DNA of 64,000 nucleotides, from assembly GCA_018268255.1 (NCBI GenBank), contig JAFDWX010000003.1, positions 271,740 to 335,739 on the forward strand, read 5' to 3'. Origin of the DNA: Armatimonadota bacterium. Lineage in GTDB: Bacteria > Armatimonadota > Fimbriimonadia > Fimbriimonadales > Fimbriimonadaceae. This document shows, one piece after another, positions 1,599-10,131 of the stretch. Both the position numbers and the translations under genes were made by a program. Numbering within the stretch: position 1 is the first letter of the stretch; each line of letters begins with the position of its first letter. Below the pieces are notes generated by a model that was not told the origin of the DNA, ran no database searches, and worked only from the letters and a program-made list of their open reading frames with translations.

Positions 1599-1630
1599 AA
1601 CTGCCAACGGATGAGATCCCGTTGGCAGTT
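1599..1630. terminator. bidirectional hairpin terminator between convergent genes
   Basis: A perfect 12-bp inverted repeat (AACTGCCAACGG and CCGTTGGCAGTT) separated by 8 bases sits exactly between the rhamnosidase stop and the rtcB-like stop. Its position between two convergent genes suggests it ends both transcripts. The flanking T-tracts are weak. Confidence 0.7.
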
Positions 1631-2796
1631 CAGTCTTTGTAAGGGTCGAACTCATTCGCGCCTGCCATCGCCACTCCAACTGGGGTCAGAGTGTGGAGAA
1701 TGCGAATCGTTCCCTCGTGTTGAGCCAGAACGTCTGGCAGTCGCTTGTAGCAATGCGGCGACTCGTCGGTGCCGGCTCCGCGCAAGGTTACGCCCGCATC
1801 TTCGACCCATCGCTCCATCATGTGCGGCGTGATCTGGCCCCCGAGTCGCTTGTTTCCCTTACGCTTTCCCGCAGCTTGGGTGCGGCTGAGCACTCGACCC
1901 GCACCGTGAACGGTCGAGAACAGAGAGTGCTCTGAGTCCGGGTGATCTACCCCTTCAACGATGACGGAGATGTCGCCCATCGATCCTCCGATGAACCCCT
2001 TTTGGCCCGGAAATGCTGGAGTCGCGCCTTTACGCACAACCCAGAGATCTTGCCCTCCGTGGGTTTCCCGCCACGCAAAGTTGTGGTGGTTGTGCACTTC
2101 GTCCAAGATTTTCGCTCCCAGAATCCGCGCAACCTTTCCGCAGACCCAGTCTCGGCCAGCATAGGCGTATCTACCCGCCAGCTCCATAAACTGGAGATAG
2201 TCGGCTCCCAGATCAGATGATTGGTGGAGGAGCGTCGCCTCTGTATGCATCCCGTCCGGAGCTCCGGACATCTTGAGGAAGTACGAGGCGATGTGATGCC
2301 CCAATCCGCGTGAGCCAAAGTGCACACCGATCCAAACCCGATCTTGTTCATCCACAAAGAGATCGACGTAGTGGTTACCGCTTCCGACCGTACCAAGTTG
2401 CCCCTGCGCCATTTCTTTCTTCTGGCTCAAGAGGTTGGTGTTCCACAGCACGCTATCGAACAATTCATGGTCCACTTCTTCCTTGTTCTTTCTTCCGATG
2501 CCAAAGCTGATTTTGTCCCATACATCATCCATGATCTTATGGATCTTTCTTCGAAGCTCTCTCCCCGGCATGTCGGTTAACACTGCTTTGTTTCCACACG
2601 CTATGTCGTATCCGACTCCGCTTGGAGACACATGTTCCAGATACGCGGCAACACCGCCGATCGGCATTGAATAGCCCACATGGTGGTCTGCCATCAATGC
2701 GACTTTGTACGCGGTTTTTGCCACTGTTTGAACCTGGCTCAGAGCATCCGATAGAATCGGATCTCCCCAAACCGGGATTCCGTTGACGATTTTCAT
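1630..2796 (-). CDS. rtcB: RtcB-family RNA ligase (tRNA-splicing/RNA repair ligase)
   Basis: RtcB joins RNA 2',3'-cyclic phosphate or 3'-phosphate ends to 5'-OH ends using GTP and Mn2+. Visible family motifs, in order, are MADHHVGYSMPIGGVAA, GVGYDIACGNKA (metal-binding Asp and Cys), GTVGSGNHYVDL, GVHFGSRGLGHHIA, RKGATPAFPGQKGFIGGSMGD and STVHGAGRVLSR, which contains the guanylated His. At 388 residues it belongs to the shorter RtcB class. The ATG at 2796 has an AAAGGAT ribosome site eight bases upstream. The gene follows a leader that has its own promoter, a small ORF and a terminator hairpin (separate entries), so attenuation control is likely. No archease or RtcA gene is nearby. Confidence 0.93.
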   Translation of the reverse strand: MKIVNGIPVWGDPILSDALSQVQTVAKTAYKVALMADHHVGYSMPIGGVAAYLEHVSPSGVGYDIACGNKAVLTDMPGRELRRKIHKIMDDVWDKISFGIGRKNKEEVDHELFDSVLWNTNLLSQKKEMAQGQLGTVGSGNHYVDLFVDEQDRVWIGVHFGSRGLGHHIASYFLKMSGAPDGMHTEATLLHQSSDLGADYLQFMELAGRYAYAGRDWVCGKVARILGAKILDEVHNHHNFAWRETHGGQDLWVVRKGATPAFPGQKGFIGGSMGDISVIVEGVDHPDSEHSLFSTVHGAGRVLSRTQAAGKRKGNKRLGGQITPHMMERWVEDAGVTLRGAGTDESPHCYKRLPDVLAQHEGTIRILHTLTPVGVAMAGANEFDPYKD

Positions 2797-2821
2797 TGGT
2801 TATCCTTTAAATTTGTTTAAA

Positions 2822-2857
2822 CGAAAAAGCCCTGCACAATCTTCATTGCGCAGGGCT
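2822..2857 (-). terminator. intrinsic terminator in the rtcB leader (attenuator candidate)
   Basis: Read on the minus strand, a 13-bp stem with one mismatch (AGCCCTGCGCAAT pairing with ATTGTGCAGGGCT) and a short loop is followed by TTTTTCGTTT. This is a textbook intrinsic terminator. It lies 25 bases upstream of rtcB and downstream of a promoter and small ORF, so it would stop rtcB transcription unless disrupted. The 5' arm base GCGCAAT can also pair with ATTGCGC inside the small ORF (plus coordinates 2894-2900), giving a candidate antiterminator. Confidence 0.7.
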
Positions 2858-2882
2858 TGTTGGATTACAGTTACCTAGTCCA

Positions 2883-2960
2883 TCAAGTATCTAGCGCAAT
2901 ATCGCCCGAGCCGTCTGTGCGACTCAGTATGTTGGCGATACTTTGGCGATAGATACGCAT
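2883..2960 (-). CDS. candidate 25-codon leader peptide upstream of rtcB
   Basis: This small ORF begins with ATG at 2960 after a GGGAGA ribosome site at about ten bases and ends with TGA at 2883. It lies between a promoter (2991-3021) and the leader terminator (2822-2857). The peptide is polar, has no signal sequence and shows no run of one amino acid such as classical trp or his leaders have. Codons near its end contain ATTGCGC, complementary to the 5' arm of the terminator, so ribosome position could decide which hairpin forms. Whether it is translated is unknown. Confidence 0.4.
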   Translation of the reverse strand: MRIYRQSIANILSRTDGSGDIALDT

Positions 2961-2990
2961 GGTTTTGTTTCTCCCATTTGGGATCAATCC

Positions 2991-3021
2991 ATTATTGCAG
3001 AAGTGGCAGGACATTTGTCAA
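2991..3021 (-). promoter_or_regulatory. sigma70-type promoter for the rtcB leader
   Basis: On the minus strand a perfect TTGACA (3016-3021) is followed after 19 bases by AATAAT (2991-2996). The -35 box overlaps the stop codon of the upstream phosphodiesterase gene, so rtcB has its own transcript beginning near 2985. The spacer is two bases longer than ideal. Confidence 0.5.
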
Positions 3022-3773
3022 GGTTGGCGGTCCAATAGCCATTTGCGCAAGACACTAGGCTTGTCCGTGTTGAGAAAATCAACCCCTGCCGAAAACTGGA
3101 CTTTCCAGACAGCTTCGGAATCTGGGGCACCCCAGAATCGGATCCGACGACCCTCTGAGTGAACTTTGCGAACCATGGCCCGAAGGCGGGAGCGTTCCAG
3201 TGCAGGCATCGCGCCTGTTCCCACCCAGGAAAAGTGACTACTCCATGATTCACTCACCCACGGCATAAATTCGACCGAGTAACCCTTGCCCAGATCGTCC
3301 CATCGGCCGTCTAGCCCAGCAATTTTCCCGCGATCCAACTGGATTGCGTCGATCGGCCGATCTCCGCTGATCACAAATCGGACGGCCGGACGCGTTCCTG
3401 ACTTTTTCAACTGAGGGAACTTCTTTAGCTCGTTCTTGAGCTCCGCGTACACCTTTTCGCCATCAGCTTTGATATCGATCAGGACCCAAAGGATCTCATC
3501 GGATCCTGCGAAGACACGACCGTCGTTCTGGTCGATCCGTTTGGCTAGCGGAGCCAAGTACATATTGACCAAGGTTCTTTCTGGTTTGACCAAGGCCCGA
3601 TCATGCGCCACAAGGAGTTGCCCGTCGACCAAAAATACGTCTGCCTCCACACTGCAGAAGCCGTTTTCGAGCGCTAATTCAAGTGGTGGTTCTCGGAGAT
3701 AGTCATTGTGGGAATGCGCACGCGGCAAAACCACGAGGTGCTCTGATAGAGCCAGCGCAAACCACAAAAGCAT
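3018..3773 (-). CDS. GDPD / PI-PLC-like phosphodiesterase (AIM6-like), exported
   Basis: This 251-residue protein belongs to the glycerophosphodiester phosphodiesterase/PI-PLC-like TIM-barrel superfamily, closest in style to the AIM6-like group. The motif PRAHSHNDYLREPPLELAL holds the first catalytic His-Asn-Asp cluster. SVEADVFLVDGQLLVAHD supplies the metal-binding Glu/Asp and second His. DIKADGE and the C-terminal FLNTDKPSVL complete the barrel. The N-terminus (MLLWFALALSEHLVVL) is a short hydrophobic leader, so export is likely. The substrate is unknown; glycerophosphodiesters are the family precedent. It is divergent from the S10 peptidase gene at 3836, with 62 bases between them. Confidence 0.75.
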   Translation of the reverse strand: MLLWFALALSEHLVVLPRAHSHNDYLREPPLELALENGFCSVEADVFLVDGQLLVAHDRALVKPERTLVNMYLAPLAKRIDQNDGRVFAGSDEILWVLIDIKADGEKVYAELKNELKKFPQLKKSGTRPAVRFVISGDRPIDAIQLDRGKIAGLDGRWDDLGKGYSVEFMPWVSESWSSHFSWVGTGAMPALERSRLRAMVRKVHSEGRRIRFWGAPDSEAVWKVQFSAGVDFLNTDKPSVLRKWLLDRQP

Positions 3774-5741: not shown

Positions 5742-7841
5742 ATGCTGAAAGTACATATTAAACGGACGATTATCGTCGGCATCTTGGGGGCGGTCATCGC
5801 CTTGCTCTATGGGCTTCTTTCGCCCAAAGTGTATGAGGGCCGCGTTGAGATGCTTCTCAGCGACGAAACTCGTCAAGGCACTCTTTCCACCTCGAACGTG
5901 TTCAGCTCCGACGTGCTTTCCATCCTGGAAAAGAACCGGCCGCAAGGTGCCCAAACCGAGCGCCAATTACTCAGTTCGCTGAGCATTTTCTACCAAGCGG
6001 TGGCTCGGTACTCTGATGAACAGGGTGATCGCGCCTTGCTCGCCAACTGGAACCAGCTCTATGAGATGTACGACATCGAGACGGCTCGCCAACAGAACAA
6101 TGCGGCCATCGACGCTGGTGTCGCGCTAATCAAGGTCCGCGCCTACAATCCCAAAGCTGCGGCAGGTATCGCCAACGCTATTCCGGTCGTTTATAACGAG
6201 CGACGTCTGCAGAACTCGCGAGAATCCGTGCAGGAGGCACTCAACTACCTCCAGACCAAGATGAGCAATGCCGAACGCGAGCTTAAAGCTGCGGAGACGC
6301 GCCTGAAGGACTACAAGTCCGAAACGAGTATCCCGGATATCCCAAAGGCAAAGCAGGATTACACGAATACGCTCACGATTCTCGAACAGAGTCGTCAGCG
6401 AACAGCAACTGAATTGGAAGGGGCAAAGGCTGCTGCAGCAACCTCGGCCGCGCAGCTGGCCACTCTGCCCAAATCAGAAGTCACGGGTTCCAGCTCCGGC
6501 AAAACCACTGAAGTTCTTGGATACGAGCAGGAGTTGGCGCGGCTTAATGCCGAGCGAGAATCACTGCTAACGGTTTATCTTCCCGATGCCATCCAGGTTA
6601 AGCAAAATGAAGAGCGGCTCCGAGCCATTCAGAACAAGCTTGCTGCGGCTAAGAAAAAGAACGCTACGGAAACCAGTGTAACGACCAAGCAGACCACTCC
6701 GGTCTATAGCTCGATGCAGAATCTGGCGGAGACTCAAAAGATCCGGGTGCAAGAGCTGGAAAGCCAACTCGCCGAGTACGATCGTCAGATCGCTCAGCAG
6801 AAGACCATTGTTGCCGGTCTGCCTGAAAAGGAACTCCAAATGAACGCGCGAGAACGCGAGTACCTCATTTTGGACATGACCTACAAGAATCTCCGAGCGC
6901 AGTCGGAGGACCTCAAGACTCGAACCGAAACCGCTTATCGATCTGCACTCGTGTTGAACACGGCGACAGAAGACGACGAGTCTGTTGCGCCGGACATCAA
7001 AAAGTTCGCCCTAGTGGGTGGTACCGCTGGCCTTTGTCTCGGAATTCTCCTGAGCTACATTCTTGAGTCGCTCAAACTTCGGATCCAATCTTCGACTCAG
7101 CTCACGGCACTCACAGGACTTCCTGTTGTCGCTGCTATCCCGGCGTCGGCAAAGACTGGTGCTAAGGCTTTGCGAGGCATCAACCAGTCCGGCAGCCCGA
7201 TACCGGAGGCATTCCGATACATGGCCTTCTCGATGGTCACGAATCAAACGAAGACCATGCGGACTCTCATGTTCACGGGTGTCCGTACGGCCATGACCAC
7301 CTACAGCTCTGCGGCGCAATTTGCGATGGCGGTGGCTGATGGTGGGACGCGAGTACTGCTCGTTGACGGCGACATGCTCAAATCACCGATCTCAAGAGCT
7401 CTGGATGCAAGCGGGCGACAAGGATTGAGCGATCTCCTGGCGGCGGAATCGTCGGCACAGGTTCAGGACTACATCATCGAAACGGTGCACCCGAATCTGT
7501 CGCTCCTTCCCGGTGGTACCGATCCTTCGATCAAGTTCATGACGAACGCTCCCCAGCCCAAACTGGAAGCGATCCTTCAGGCCTTGAGAATCAGTTGCGA
7601 TGTGATCGTGTTCGCCGTTCCACCGTGCGACGTCTTGGCGGATGCCTCTTGTTTGGCTCGCCACGTGGATGACGTTTGCCTGGTGGTCTCGGCTGCGCAA
7701 ACCAACTACCGGGCTGTGCCTCTGGCTCAGGACCTGCTGATGAAGGCTGGAGCCAAGAACATCAGCATCGTCATGGCAGACGCAAGCGCCGACGAGGAGC
7801 CGTTTGCAAAGCGAAGCGCATACCTTACGCGAGCTGGTTAG
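5742..7841 (+). CDS. Wzz / BY-kinase-like polysaccharide co-polymerase with degenerate kinase P-loop
   Basis: This 699-residue inner-membrane protein would control chain length and export of exopolysaccharide. TM1 is at residues 8-26, a long periplasmic region with Lys/Glu/Gln-rich coiled coils covers about 160-400, and TM2 (FALVGGTAGLCLGILLSYIL) is at about 421-443. A cytoplasmic BY-kinase-type ATPase domain follows. The Walker A position reads FTGVRTAMTTYSS at about 509 instead of a GxGKST loop, so ATP binding is doubtful. Walker A' (VLLVDGDMLKSP, about 537) and a Walker B-like strand (VIVFAVPP, about 619) remain. No C-terminal tyrosine cluster is seen. It is the first gene of the locus; an outer-membrane Wza partner is absent from the window. 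Confidence 0.85.
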   Translation: MLKVHIKRTIIVGILGAVIALLYGLLSPKVYEGRVEMLLSDETRQGTLSTSNVFSSDVLSILEKNRPQGAQTERQLLSSLSIFYQAVARYSDEQGDRALLANWNQLYEMYDIETARQQNNAAIDAGVALIKVRAYNPKAAAGIANAIPVVYNERRLQNSRESVQEALNYLQTKMSNAERELKAAETRLKDYKSETSIPDIPKAKQDYTNTLTILEQSRQRTATELEGAKAAAATSAAQLATLPKSEVTGSSSGKTTEVLGYEQELARLNAERESLLTVYLPDAIQVKQNEERLRAIQNKLAAAKKKNATETSVTTKQTTPVYSSMQNLAETQKIRVQELESQLAEYDRQIAQQKTIVAGLPEKELQMNAREREYLILDMTYKNLRAQSEDLKTRTETAYRSALVLNTATEDDESVAPDIKKFALVGGTAGLCLGILLSYILESLKLRIQSSTQLTALTGLPVVAAIPASAKTGAKALRGINQSGSPIPEAFRYMAFSMVTNQTKTMRTLMFTGVRTAMTTYSSAAQFAMAVADGGTRVLLVDGDMLKSPISRALDASGRQGLSDLLAAESSAQVQDYIIETVHPNLSLLPGGTDPSIKFMTNAPQPKLEAILQALRISCDVIVFAVPPCDVLADASCLARHVDDVCLVVSAAQTNYRAVPLAQDLLMKAGAKNISIVMADASADEEPFAKRSAYLTRAG

Positions 7842-8715
7842 TAACCTTACTCGAACGACCTTGGCCGACCCGAAAGTTTCGGCGATCATCCCGGCGTACA
7901 ACGCCGAAGCGACGATTGCGGAGGCTATCGAGTCGGCCAAATCACAAACGCACCTTCCCGATGAGATCATCGTGGCAAACGATGGGAGCACGGATCGAAC
8001 ATCTCATATAGCGCGCGAATTTGGAGTCACCGTAATTGACCTACCCAAGGCAAACGGAGCTGTCGCCCGCAACGAAGGAGCACGGGTCGCGAAGGGAGAA
8101 GTCCTCTTCTTTTTGGATGCCGACGACTTGTGGATGCCCAAAAAGATCGAGGAGCACCTCGCAATCTACTCATCCCAAACACCGGGTTTGGTGCTCGATC
8201 AGACGATCCCGTTCAACAGCAAGGGAGAACTCAGTTGGCGAGGCGGATTGCCCATTGCCGGTCCATTGCGATACAACCGTCTCATCAATCATCGTGCATG
8301 GCCAAGCGGAAGCGGATTTAGCGTCCTCAAATCACTCTACTGGGCGGTGGATGGATTCCATCCTAGTTTGATCAAGTTTCAAGATGTGGATTTCTGGATC
8401 CGGGTTGCTTCCGCATGGGGATCGTTTTACAGCTTGGGTAAGCCCCTCACTCGATATCGTGTGAATGACAATTCCGTTTCGAAGGGAACTGCCAATCACC
8501 TTGAGAACCTAAATACGATGTTCGAAGGATGGCCTTTTGCGACCGATGCAGAAAAGACAAAGATGCGCCGTATTGCAAGCCTTTTGGTGGCAGAGGTTCG
8601 TCCTTTCCCAGCGTCCGCTCGGTTTTTGCTGGAGTCCGGCCCCGCAATTGCCGATCGTTTCTTTTGGAAGTGCCTGTTAGGTTCAATAAAGCGTACAATT
8701 CACTCGAAGGTTTAA
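7804..8715 (+). CDS. GT2 family glycosyltransferase
   Basis: This 303-residue GT-A enzyme probably adds a sugar to the lipid-linked repeat unit of the exopolysaccharide. It shows the nucleotide-sugar fold start VSAIIPAYNAEATIAEAIES, then IIVANDGSTDRT, and the DxD-type metal motif FFLDADDLW. The reading frame begins at TTG 7804, overlapping the preceding gene by 38 bases, with GAGGAG just upstream at 7794-7799. A second TTG at 7861 directly before the fold is possible. The overlap suggests translational coupling to the co-polymerase. No membrane segment is obvious. Donor and acceptor sugars cannot be read from the sequence. Confidence 0.88.
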   Translation: MQSEAHTLRELVSNLTRTTLADPKVSAIIPAYNAEATIAEAIESAKSQTHLPDEIIVANDGSTDRTSHIAREFGVTVIDLPKANGAVARNEGARVAKGEVLFFLDADDLWMPKKIEEHLAIYSSQTPGLVLDQTIPFNSKGELSWRGGLPIAGPLRYNRLINHRAWPSGSGFSVLKSLYWAVDGFHPSLIKFQDVDFWIRVASAWGSFYSLGKPLTRYRVNDNSVSKGTANHLENLNTMFEGWPFATDAEKTKMRRIASLLVAEVRPFPASARFLLESGPAIADRFFWKCLLGSIKRTIHSKV

Positions 8716-10131
8716 ATGGCGACCGTAGCTGACCCCAAATTCCATTCGACTCGGTTAGAAGCCGAAGGTCGGGATCGAATTGCTCCAGCGCACAATGCAC
8801 TGGTGGCATGGGGCATGGCCAACTGCTTTTTGCTGATGGCCCAGCAGTACCTAACCTTCATCATGACCCCCCTGGGTGCTCAGAAATTCACTTTTGCCAG
8901 CATCATGGTTTGGGTCGGCGTCGCTTTGTGGACCAACAAGGCACCGCTTCGGGTTCCGGTCGGATTGGCGTTTATGCTGATCCTCAGTGCCTGGTTTTCA
9001 TTTACCACGATGTACAACCAGGTGACGATTGCCAGGACCACGGTCTTCAACGGCATGGACCTGCTGCTTTCTGTATATGCGCTTGCCTTTTTCCAAGGAT
9101 CCATGCTGGTCTGGATCGCACCGCATTCCAGGCGGATCATGGGCATCTCGACCTTGGTGGTCGGCATCGCCTCGTGCCTATTGGCAATTCTCCAGTTTGA
9201 GGGCGTTGGGCCCGCGCTCGCCATCTATAAGCGTATCCGGGACGCCGACATGATCCAGCAGGTCGTAGAAGGCGAAATCATCCGCGCGCCGGGATTGCAC
9301 TCGAACATCGGTAACGTCATTGCTTATGGCCTGATGGGTGCCCTGATGCTTGCTGCGATCTCAAAGTATCGTGCGCTCAAATGGTATGAATTCGCGGGAA
9401 TCTGCCTATTTCTGCTCTCCACCCTGCTGGTGCAGGTGCGAAACCAGCTGCCGGTCGTCGGGCTCATTTCGATCTGGCTCGCTGTCATTCTGCTCCGCCG
9501 GTATCGGCTGGCAGGAGGTGTGGTCGGTGCAGTCATGTTGGCCGCAGTTATCGTCTTCTTCCTTGCGAGGCAAGATCAATTCGGCTACATCTTGAATGCT
9601 GGTGCCTCCACGCTGGAGTACCGACAAACGGTCCTCTGGCCGCAGGGGTTCCATATCCTCAGTCAGCGTCCGCTTGTTGGAATCGGCGTGGAGCCGGCGT
9701 TCGTGGGATGGACCACTCAAATATTCCCTAATAAGTGGATGGCGGTTGGCCTCATGGACAACGGATGGCTTGTCGCCGGAATTTTTGGCGGTTATCCGGC
9801 GATCGCGTTGCTGGGTCTCACCGTTTTTTGTTTCTTGCTCGCGTCCATCCGGTCGTCCAATGAGCCGGCGGAAGACTACTGGCAACTCGCCTTTCGATAC
9901 GGAATGGTTGCTGTCTCCGTGTTCTTCGCGACCGGTATGTTCTTCGGCACCCTTTGGGGTAACCCCAACTCCGTCAACTTGTTCTTCATCTTGGCGGGAC
10001 TTTCACTCAACACCAATCCTGACTACCGTAAGGATCTTCCTGGCCTCGCGGGTCAGGTGGTGAACCCAGGCTGGTGGCGACAGAAGGCTCGACGTATCCT
10101 GGTTGGGGACATCGAACCCAAAACTCTGTAA
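8716..10131 (+). CDS. O-antigen ligase / Wzy-type polymerase family membrane protein
   Basis: This 471-residue protein has about ten to twelve predicted membrane helices. A conserved periplasmic-loop signature (RQTVLWPQGFHILSQRPLVGIGV) is the hallmark of the Wzy_C / O-antigen ligase superfamily. Within a Wzx/Wzy-type locus it most likely polymerises undecaprenyl-linked repeat units on the periplasmic face. The ATG directly follows the glycosyltransferase stop codon (TAAATGG), so the genes are co-translated. Polymerase and ligase cannot be separated by sequence alone; the linked flippase and chain-length protein favour polymerase. Confidence 0.82.
   Translation: MATVADPKFHSTRLEAEGRDRIAPAHNALVAWGMANCFLLMAQQYLTFIMTPLGAQKFTFASIMVWVGVALWTNKAPLRVPVGLAFMLILSAWFSFTTMYNQVTIARTTVFNGMDLLLSVYALAFFQGSMLVWIAPHSRRIMGISTLVVGIASCLLAILQFEGVGPALAIYKRIRDADMIQQVVEGEIIRAPGLHSNIGNVIAYGLMGALMLAAISKYRALKWYEFAGICLFLLSTLLVQVRNQLPVVGLISIWLAVILLRRYRLAGGVVGAVMLAAVIVFFLARQDQFGYILNAGASTLEYRQTVLWPQGFHILSQRPLVGIGVEPAFVGWTTQIFPNKWMAVGLMDNGWLVAGIFGGYPAIALLGLTVFCFLLASIRSSNEPAEDYWQLAFRYGMVAVSVFFATGMFFGTLWGNPNSVNLFFILAGLSLNTNPDYRKDLPGLAGQVVNPGWWRQKARRILVGDIEPKTL

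Follow-up and report, generated by a model that had tools for sequence, protein, structure and literature searches.

A probable ribosome-mediated transcription attenuator in front of the RNA ligase gene rtcB in Fimbriimonadaceae and part of the Acidobacteriota

The window, meaning the whole 64,000-nucleotide stretch analysed here from an Armatimonadota bacterium of the family Fimbriimonadaceae, carries on its minus strand an rtcB gene encoding an RNA ligase of 388 amino acids. Aligned to RtcB of P. horikoshii, the protein displays the GYDIxCG, GSGNH, HxGSRGLGH, HN and HGAGR motifs and retains the catalytic motifs of the solved RtcB ligases. Upstream of rtcB lies a co-directional GDPD-like gene, and the two genes are separated by a short leader with the features listed below in the order of transcription.

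3018 to 3773, minus strand: upstream, co-directional GDPD-like gene (domain scan), given as context and outside the proposed switch.
3016 to 3021, minus strand: -35 element TTGACA (sequence), overlapping the stop of the GDPD-like gene.
2991 to 2996, minus strand: -10 element AATAAT (sequence), after a 19-nt spacer from the -35 element.
2971 to 2975, minus strand: ribosome binding site GGGAG of the leader ORF (sequence).
2883 to 2960, minus strand: leader ORF of 25 codons, MRIYRQSIANILSRTDGSGDIALDT followed by the stop; its position is conserved, its peptide is not.
2887 to 2956, minus strand: hairpin GUAUCUA...UAGAUAC over most of the leader ORF (folding, z -3.7).
2845 to 2900, minus strand: predicted antiterminator of ATTGCGC (2900-2894), a spacer hairpin and GCGCAAT (2851-2845), -18.6 kcal/mol.
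2827 to 2858, minus strand: intrinsic terminator hairpin of 14 bp with a loop of 4, -24.0 kcal/mol, running into TTTTT (about 2828-2824).
2803 to 2808, minus strand: ribosome binding site AAAGGA of rtcB (sequence).
1630 to 2796, minus strand: rtcB (Pfam PF01139, E 7.6e-68).

The original prediction had placed a promoter (TTGACA, 19 bases, AATAAT), a 25-codon ORF with a ribosome site, a terminator followed by TTTTT and rtcB in this order, which the sequence bears out. Promoter, ribosome site, ORF and terminator all fit within the 221 nt preceding rtcB on the minus strand, with a 24-nt spacer between the ORF stop and the terminator and 30 nt between the terminator and the rtcB start (ATG at 2796). 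In untranslated RNA, the hairpin over the ORF also holds the 5' half of the antiterminator. An Rfam search of the leader matched no family, even at a permissive threshold, and thus no riboswitch or T-box model. On the opposite strand of the window, positions 5742-10131 (plus) look like the start of an exopolysaccharide cluster, with products resembling a chain-length determinant/tyrosine kinase, a glycosyltransferase and an O-antigen-ligase-like membrane protein; the first of these proteins, the sole one scanned, gave a weak AAA_31 match.

Compared with 200 dinucleotide shuffles, the terminator hairpin is strongly folded (z -6.1), as is the whole leader against dinucleotide shuffles (z -7.8). 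A 25-codon ORF or a hairpin by itself could arise by chance. The combination of a promoter, an ORF with a Shine-Dalgarno (SD) site, 15-40 nt, a terminator and a gene occurred once, at this locus, on both strands of 464 kb comprising the window and 400 kb of the same genome (20 sample stretches) with 68 terminators.

Within Fimbriimonadaceae, rtcB is present in 57 of 85 genomes, and the upstream DNA of 59 rtcB loci was inspected, leaders being collected by eye on the basis of the ORF and the terminator. The full layout is found at 11 of these loci (L001, the window, and L002, L003, L005, L006, L008, L010, L045, L046, L053 and L059), of which L002, L005, L006 and L010 also display a TTGACA-like -35 element. 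The comparison of relatives that had been suggested as a check therefore shows the architecture to be kept at ten other Fimbriimonadaceae loci, and it is also kept in Acidobacteriota (below). Neither the leader peptides nor the leader RNA have any recognisable sequence in common between genera, whereas the distance from the ORF stop to the terminator stem is 24, 29, 21, 24, 28, 26, 28, 15, 7, 25 and 30 nt in the 11 family leaders and 24 and 25 nt in two Acidobacteriota leaders (L105 and L129), so that 11 of the 13 fall between 21 and 30 nt. In a tree of RtcB proteins, the clade of the window's rtcB comprises nine members, eight of which have the leader; the exception, L004, has a short ORF and no T-run terminator. 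The leader is also present in another RtcB lineage within the family (L045/L046 and L053). It is clustered on the tree, with 5 changes compared to 11.7 in shuffles and none of 500 shuffles as low, although it must have been gained or lost several times. The layout is missing from most of the remaining rtcB genes in the family and the phylum, and no convincing rtcB leader was found in the rest of the phylum Armatimonadota.

Several short ORFs and terminators in the family were not counted as leaders. At L004 and L017, a T-run terminator is missing despite the short ORFs, and the terminators at L021-L023 and L026-L027 belong to the upstream protein gene. Two genomes each encode two divergent rtcB copies, namely G010 (L004 and L046) and G035 (L012 and L031); of the G010 pair, L046 carries the attenuator layout and L004 is the one with a short ORF lacking a T-run terminator.

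In Acidobacteriota, the layout precedes rtcB in the named collection at L129 (Acidicapsa dinghuensis) and L105; pairing was part of what drew attention to L105, whose ORF start was later revised. A further search added L249, L250 and L251 beside L105, as well as L259 and L260; L268 and L270 perhaps also carry the layout. An ORF of 36 codons, stop counted, is common to L248 (the L105 gene), L249 and L250 without indels, and L259 and L260 likewise share one of 35 codons. Among these close relatives, indels do occur in the spacer and behind the terminator while the ORF stays open. L255, L256, L261 and similar loci were not counted, as the terminator there ends an upstream tsf-like gene.

By eye, rtcB follows the terminator of an elongation factor Ts-like gene, judged from its C-terminus, at L142, L172, L255, L256, L257, L261, L262, L266 and L267. 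At L038, L252 and L208, tRNA genes seem to lie directly upstream of rtcB, and rtcB may be co-transcribed with the tRNAs at these loci.

The leader ORFs have an SD or a leaderless-type start, and their frame is kept in close relatives. Purifying selection on them is weak, with pN/pS between 0.31 and 0.91 (0.91, 0.31, 0.41 and 0.41 in Acidobacteriota), and together with frame retention these Acidobacteriota values weakly suggest that the ORF is translated. Codon positions carry no signature (GC 0.55/0.54/0.55). Rare codons make up 6.7% of the leader ORFs versus 2.4%, and arginine accounts for 15.7% of leader codons (13 loci) versus 6.0% in the genome, much of this excess, though perhaps not all, being expected from unbiased base composition. 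Since the codon positions look like unselected sequence, no claim is made on rare or special codons. Nor do the leader ORFs contain a cluster or a conserved run of the codons of one amino acid, as an amino-acid-specific attenuator would.

The pairing of the terminator 5' arm with the ORF, which the original prediction had described as ATTGCGC with GCGCAAT, is fully complementary (2900-2894 with 2851-2845) and extends further than described, CTTG/CAAG and AG/CT also being able to pair. The resulting antiterminator, ATTGCGC..AG..CTTG.TGGA / TCCA.CAAG..CT.GCGCAAT (2900-2845, -18.6 kcal/mol), is predicted to sequester the entire terminator 5' arm with the ORF end and the spacer. The generality of this pairing was assessed by folding 13 leaders (the 11 of the family, L105 and L129) up to the terminator loop, before the 3' arm. 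The 5' arm paired with the ORF-end zone with a mean probability of 0.73, compared to 0.28 for 65 other genome terminators (p 1.4e-6), and 85% of the leaders versus 14% of the other terminators exceeded 0.6. When the arm was kept fixed and the leader dinucleotide-shuffled, all 13 leaders lay above the shuffle mean, with a combined z of 5.9 (Fisher p 2.7e-8), or 5.6 without the window leader. By simple duplex energy between the leader and a terminator arm, the effect is real across the set, the combined z being -4.2 for the 5' arm and -1.1 for the 3' arm. The ensemble pairing of the pre-terminator RNA is the better measure. The window's own leader is unexceptional in duplex energy (z 0.1) while its ensemble pairing gives p 0.027, and L003 is weak by both. 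At L251, changes on both sides have turned one C-G pair of the antiterminator into U-A, which preserves the structure, as read from the alignment.

Computed folds further indicate how a ribosome would affect these structures. With a ribosome placed on the stop codon, the 5' arm was paired at 0.36 instead of 0.74. In the window, a ribosome at the stop leaves only the terminator in the computed fold, while with a ribosome stalled at codon 8 the pre-terminator RNA folds best into the antiterminator. In the untranslated window leader, the 5' arm is paired at 0.62 and the hairpin over the ORF acts as a competitor, so that the outcome is ambiguous.

A simpler account is that the hairpin merely ends the GDPD-like transcript, with constitutive rtcB expression arising from leaky read-through or an unseen promoter, and the original prediction had itself named the end of the phosphodiesterase transcript as what would speak against a leader. 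The GDPD-like gene runs in the direction of rtcB, with 57 nt from its end to the leader ORF; in the Acidobacteriota loci L255, L256 and L261 the terminator before rtcB does no more than end the tsf-like gene, and at L018 and L021-L023 it follows another co-directional gene. Yet, a promoter-like site follows the GDPD-like gene in the window, and relatives keep the terminator with rtcB although the upstream gene changes: at L006 the upstream ORF has a C-terminus that looks like seryl-tRNA synthetase, and at L003, L005, L008, L010, L046 and L129 the longest nearby upstream ORF lies on the opposite strand. The ORF position and the antiterminator are also kept across the leaders. Finally, no promoter with 8 of 12 matches or better was found in the gap between terminator and rtcB in any of the 13 leaders, six of which have a gap of only 29-49 nt. 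Given the lack of a promoter in these gaps and the continued association of the terminator with rtcB, expression of rtcB should require read-through past the terminator, and the mere end of the upstream transcript is an unlikely explanation that the check did not support.

Read-through might instead be set by an RNA-binding protein, by a small molecule in a riboswitch-like manner or by a processive antitermination factor, with the ORF being incidental. The leader folds strongly even apart from the terminator, and short ORFs easily arise by chance, the leader ORFs here lacking a codon-position signature. Elements binding a ligand or a protein keep their sequence, however, while these leaders share none across genera and have the spacing between the ORF stop and the terminator as their invariant; the empty Rfam search and the retained reading frame in close relatives likewise make this explanation quite improbable. 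The promoter, ORF and terminator also form a complete unit, which could be a separate small gene, for a small protein or a small RNA, that precedes rtcB by accident. Against this, peptide and RNA sequence are unconserved between genera, the layout is found again upstream of rtcB in distinct RtcB lineages and in more than one phylum, and rtcB would be left without a promoter, which renders this the most remote of the alternatives and very hard to credit.

From the sequence comparisons and computed structures, we consider it rather likely that the rtcB leader is a ribosome-mediated transcription attenuator. It combines, in order, a promoter, a short ORF with start signals, an intrinsic terminator and the gene, and has a computed antiterminator that takes in part of the ORF and is mutually exclusive with the terminator; the layout of translation-coupled attenuation recognised in the original prediction is thereby strengthened by its recurrence and by the statistics of the alternative pairing. 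RNA polymerase would start at the sigma-70-type promoter, transcribe the short ORF and meet the terminator. During normal translation, a ribosome at the ORF stop would cover the ORF end, which is the 5' half of the antiterminator, so that the terminator could form and transcription would end. If ribosomes were to stall or be lost in the early part of the ORF, for instance because tRNAs or ribosomes had been damaged, the freed ORF end would pair with the terminator 5' arm, no terminator would form and the polymerase would read into rtcB 30 nt downstream, whose product would reseal the cleaved RNA. The switch thus probably turns rtcB on only when ribosomes stall. We infer that the ORF is translated, that the outcome is set by ribosome position and that the signal in nature is RNA damage. 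Given the lack of peptide conservation, what the leader senses is probably general translation, in keeping with an enzyme that repairs broken tRNA or rRNA.

In the attenuators of amino-acid operons such as trp and his, a leader ORF and competing hairpins let the position of the ribosome set either the terminator or the antiterminator. The leaders described here differ from these in having no regulatory codon run and in encoding a different peptide in every genus. 

In E. coli, rtcBA is under the control of RtcR and sigma-54 (PMC12606134). The likeness lies in the induction of rtcB upon RNA damage in the translation apparatus (PMC12606134), while E. coli uses a CARF-domain activator on a sigma-54 promoter and the leaders here combine a sigma-70-type promoter with a terminator. 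RtcR (PF06956) was found in none of the 85 family genomes, while E. coli, used as a positive control, gave a match, and the E. coli type of control is therefore not available to this family.

A close likeness is to armZ (PA5471) of P. aeruginosa, which lies next to prfH and has been described as a gene for an RtcB-like RNA ligase (PMC12057347). The PA5471.1 leader peptide controls armZ by transcription attenuation in response to impaired or stalled ribosomes (PMC12057347); ArmZ rises when the leader receives an early amber codon or is deleted, and armZ is induced via the leader when the tRNA CCA-adding enzyme is lost (PMC13041342), as ribosome-targeting drugs also induce the gene (PMC12057347, PMC13041342). 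Both systems place a constitutive promoter, a short leader ORF and a terminator before an RtcB-family gene (PMC12057347, PMC13041342). For armZ, full translation leads to the terminator and stalling relieves it, and sequence comparison and folding predict that the present leaders would act likewise. ArmZ, however, is the anti-repressor of an efflux-pump repressor and its gene lies beside prfH, whereas here rtcB stands alone, with all catalytic motifs, in genomes without prfH: none of the 85 family genomes scored above the PrfH cut-off, and the window RtcB falls outside the prfH-linked subfamily (TIGR03073, 102 bits versus a cut-off of 271.8). Attenuation of rtcB itself was not reported in the literature searched, which was covered in part. 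The novelty claimed in the original prediction thus applies to rtcB in the strict sense and to these phyla, but not for the RtcB superfamily, given the armZ precedent (PMC12057347, PMC13041342). It could be speculated, as a doubtful though conceivable extension, that RtcB-family ligases are widely governed by sequence-independent attenuators of translation failure, and that the armZ leader is an inherited or converged form later used for drug efflux.

The probable attenuator would join the damage-induced rtcB of E. coli and the stall-induced armZ of P. aeruginosa into one theme. It offers short natural leaders in which only the position of the ribosome, and not the peptide, should matter. For bacteria without RtcR, it gives a concrete and testable answer to how rtcB may be induced in one family and part of a second phylum, in which the ribosome itself would be the damage sensor.
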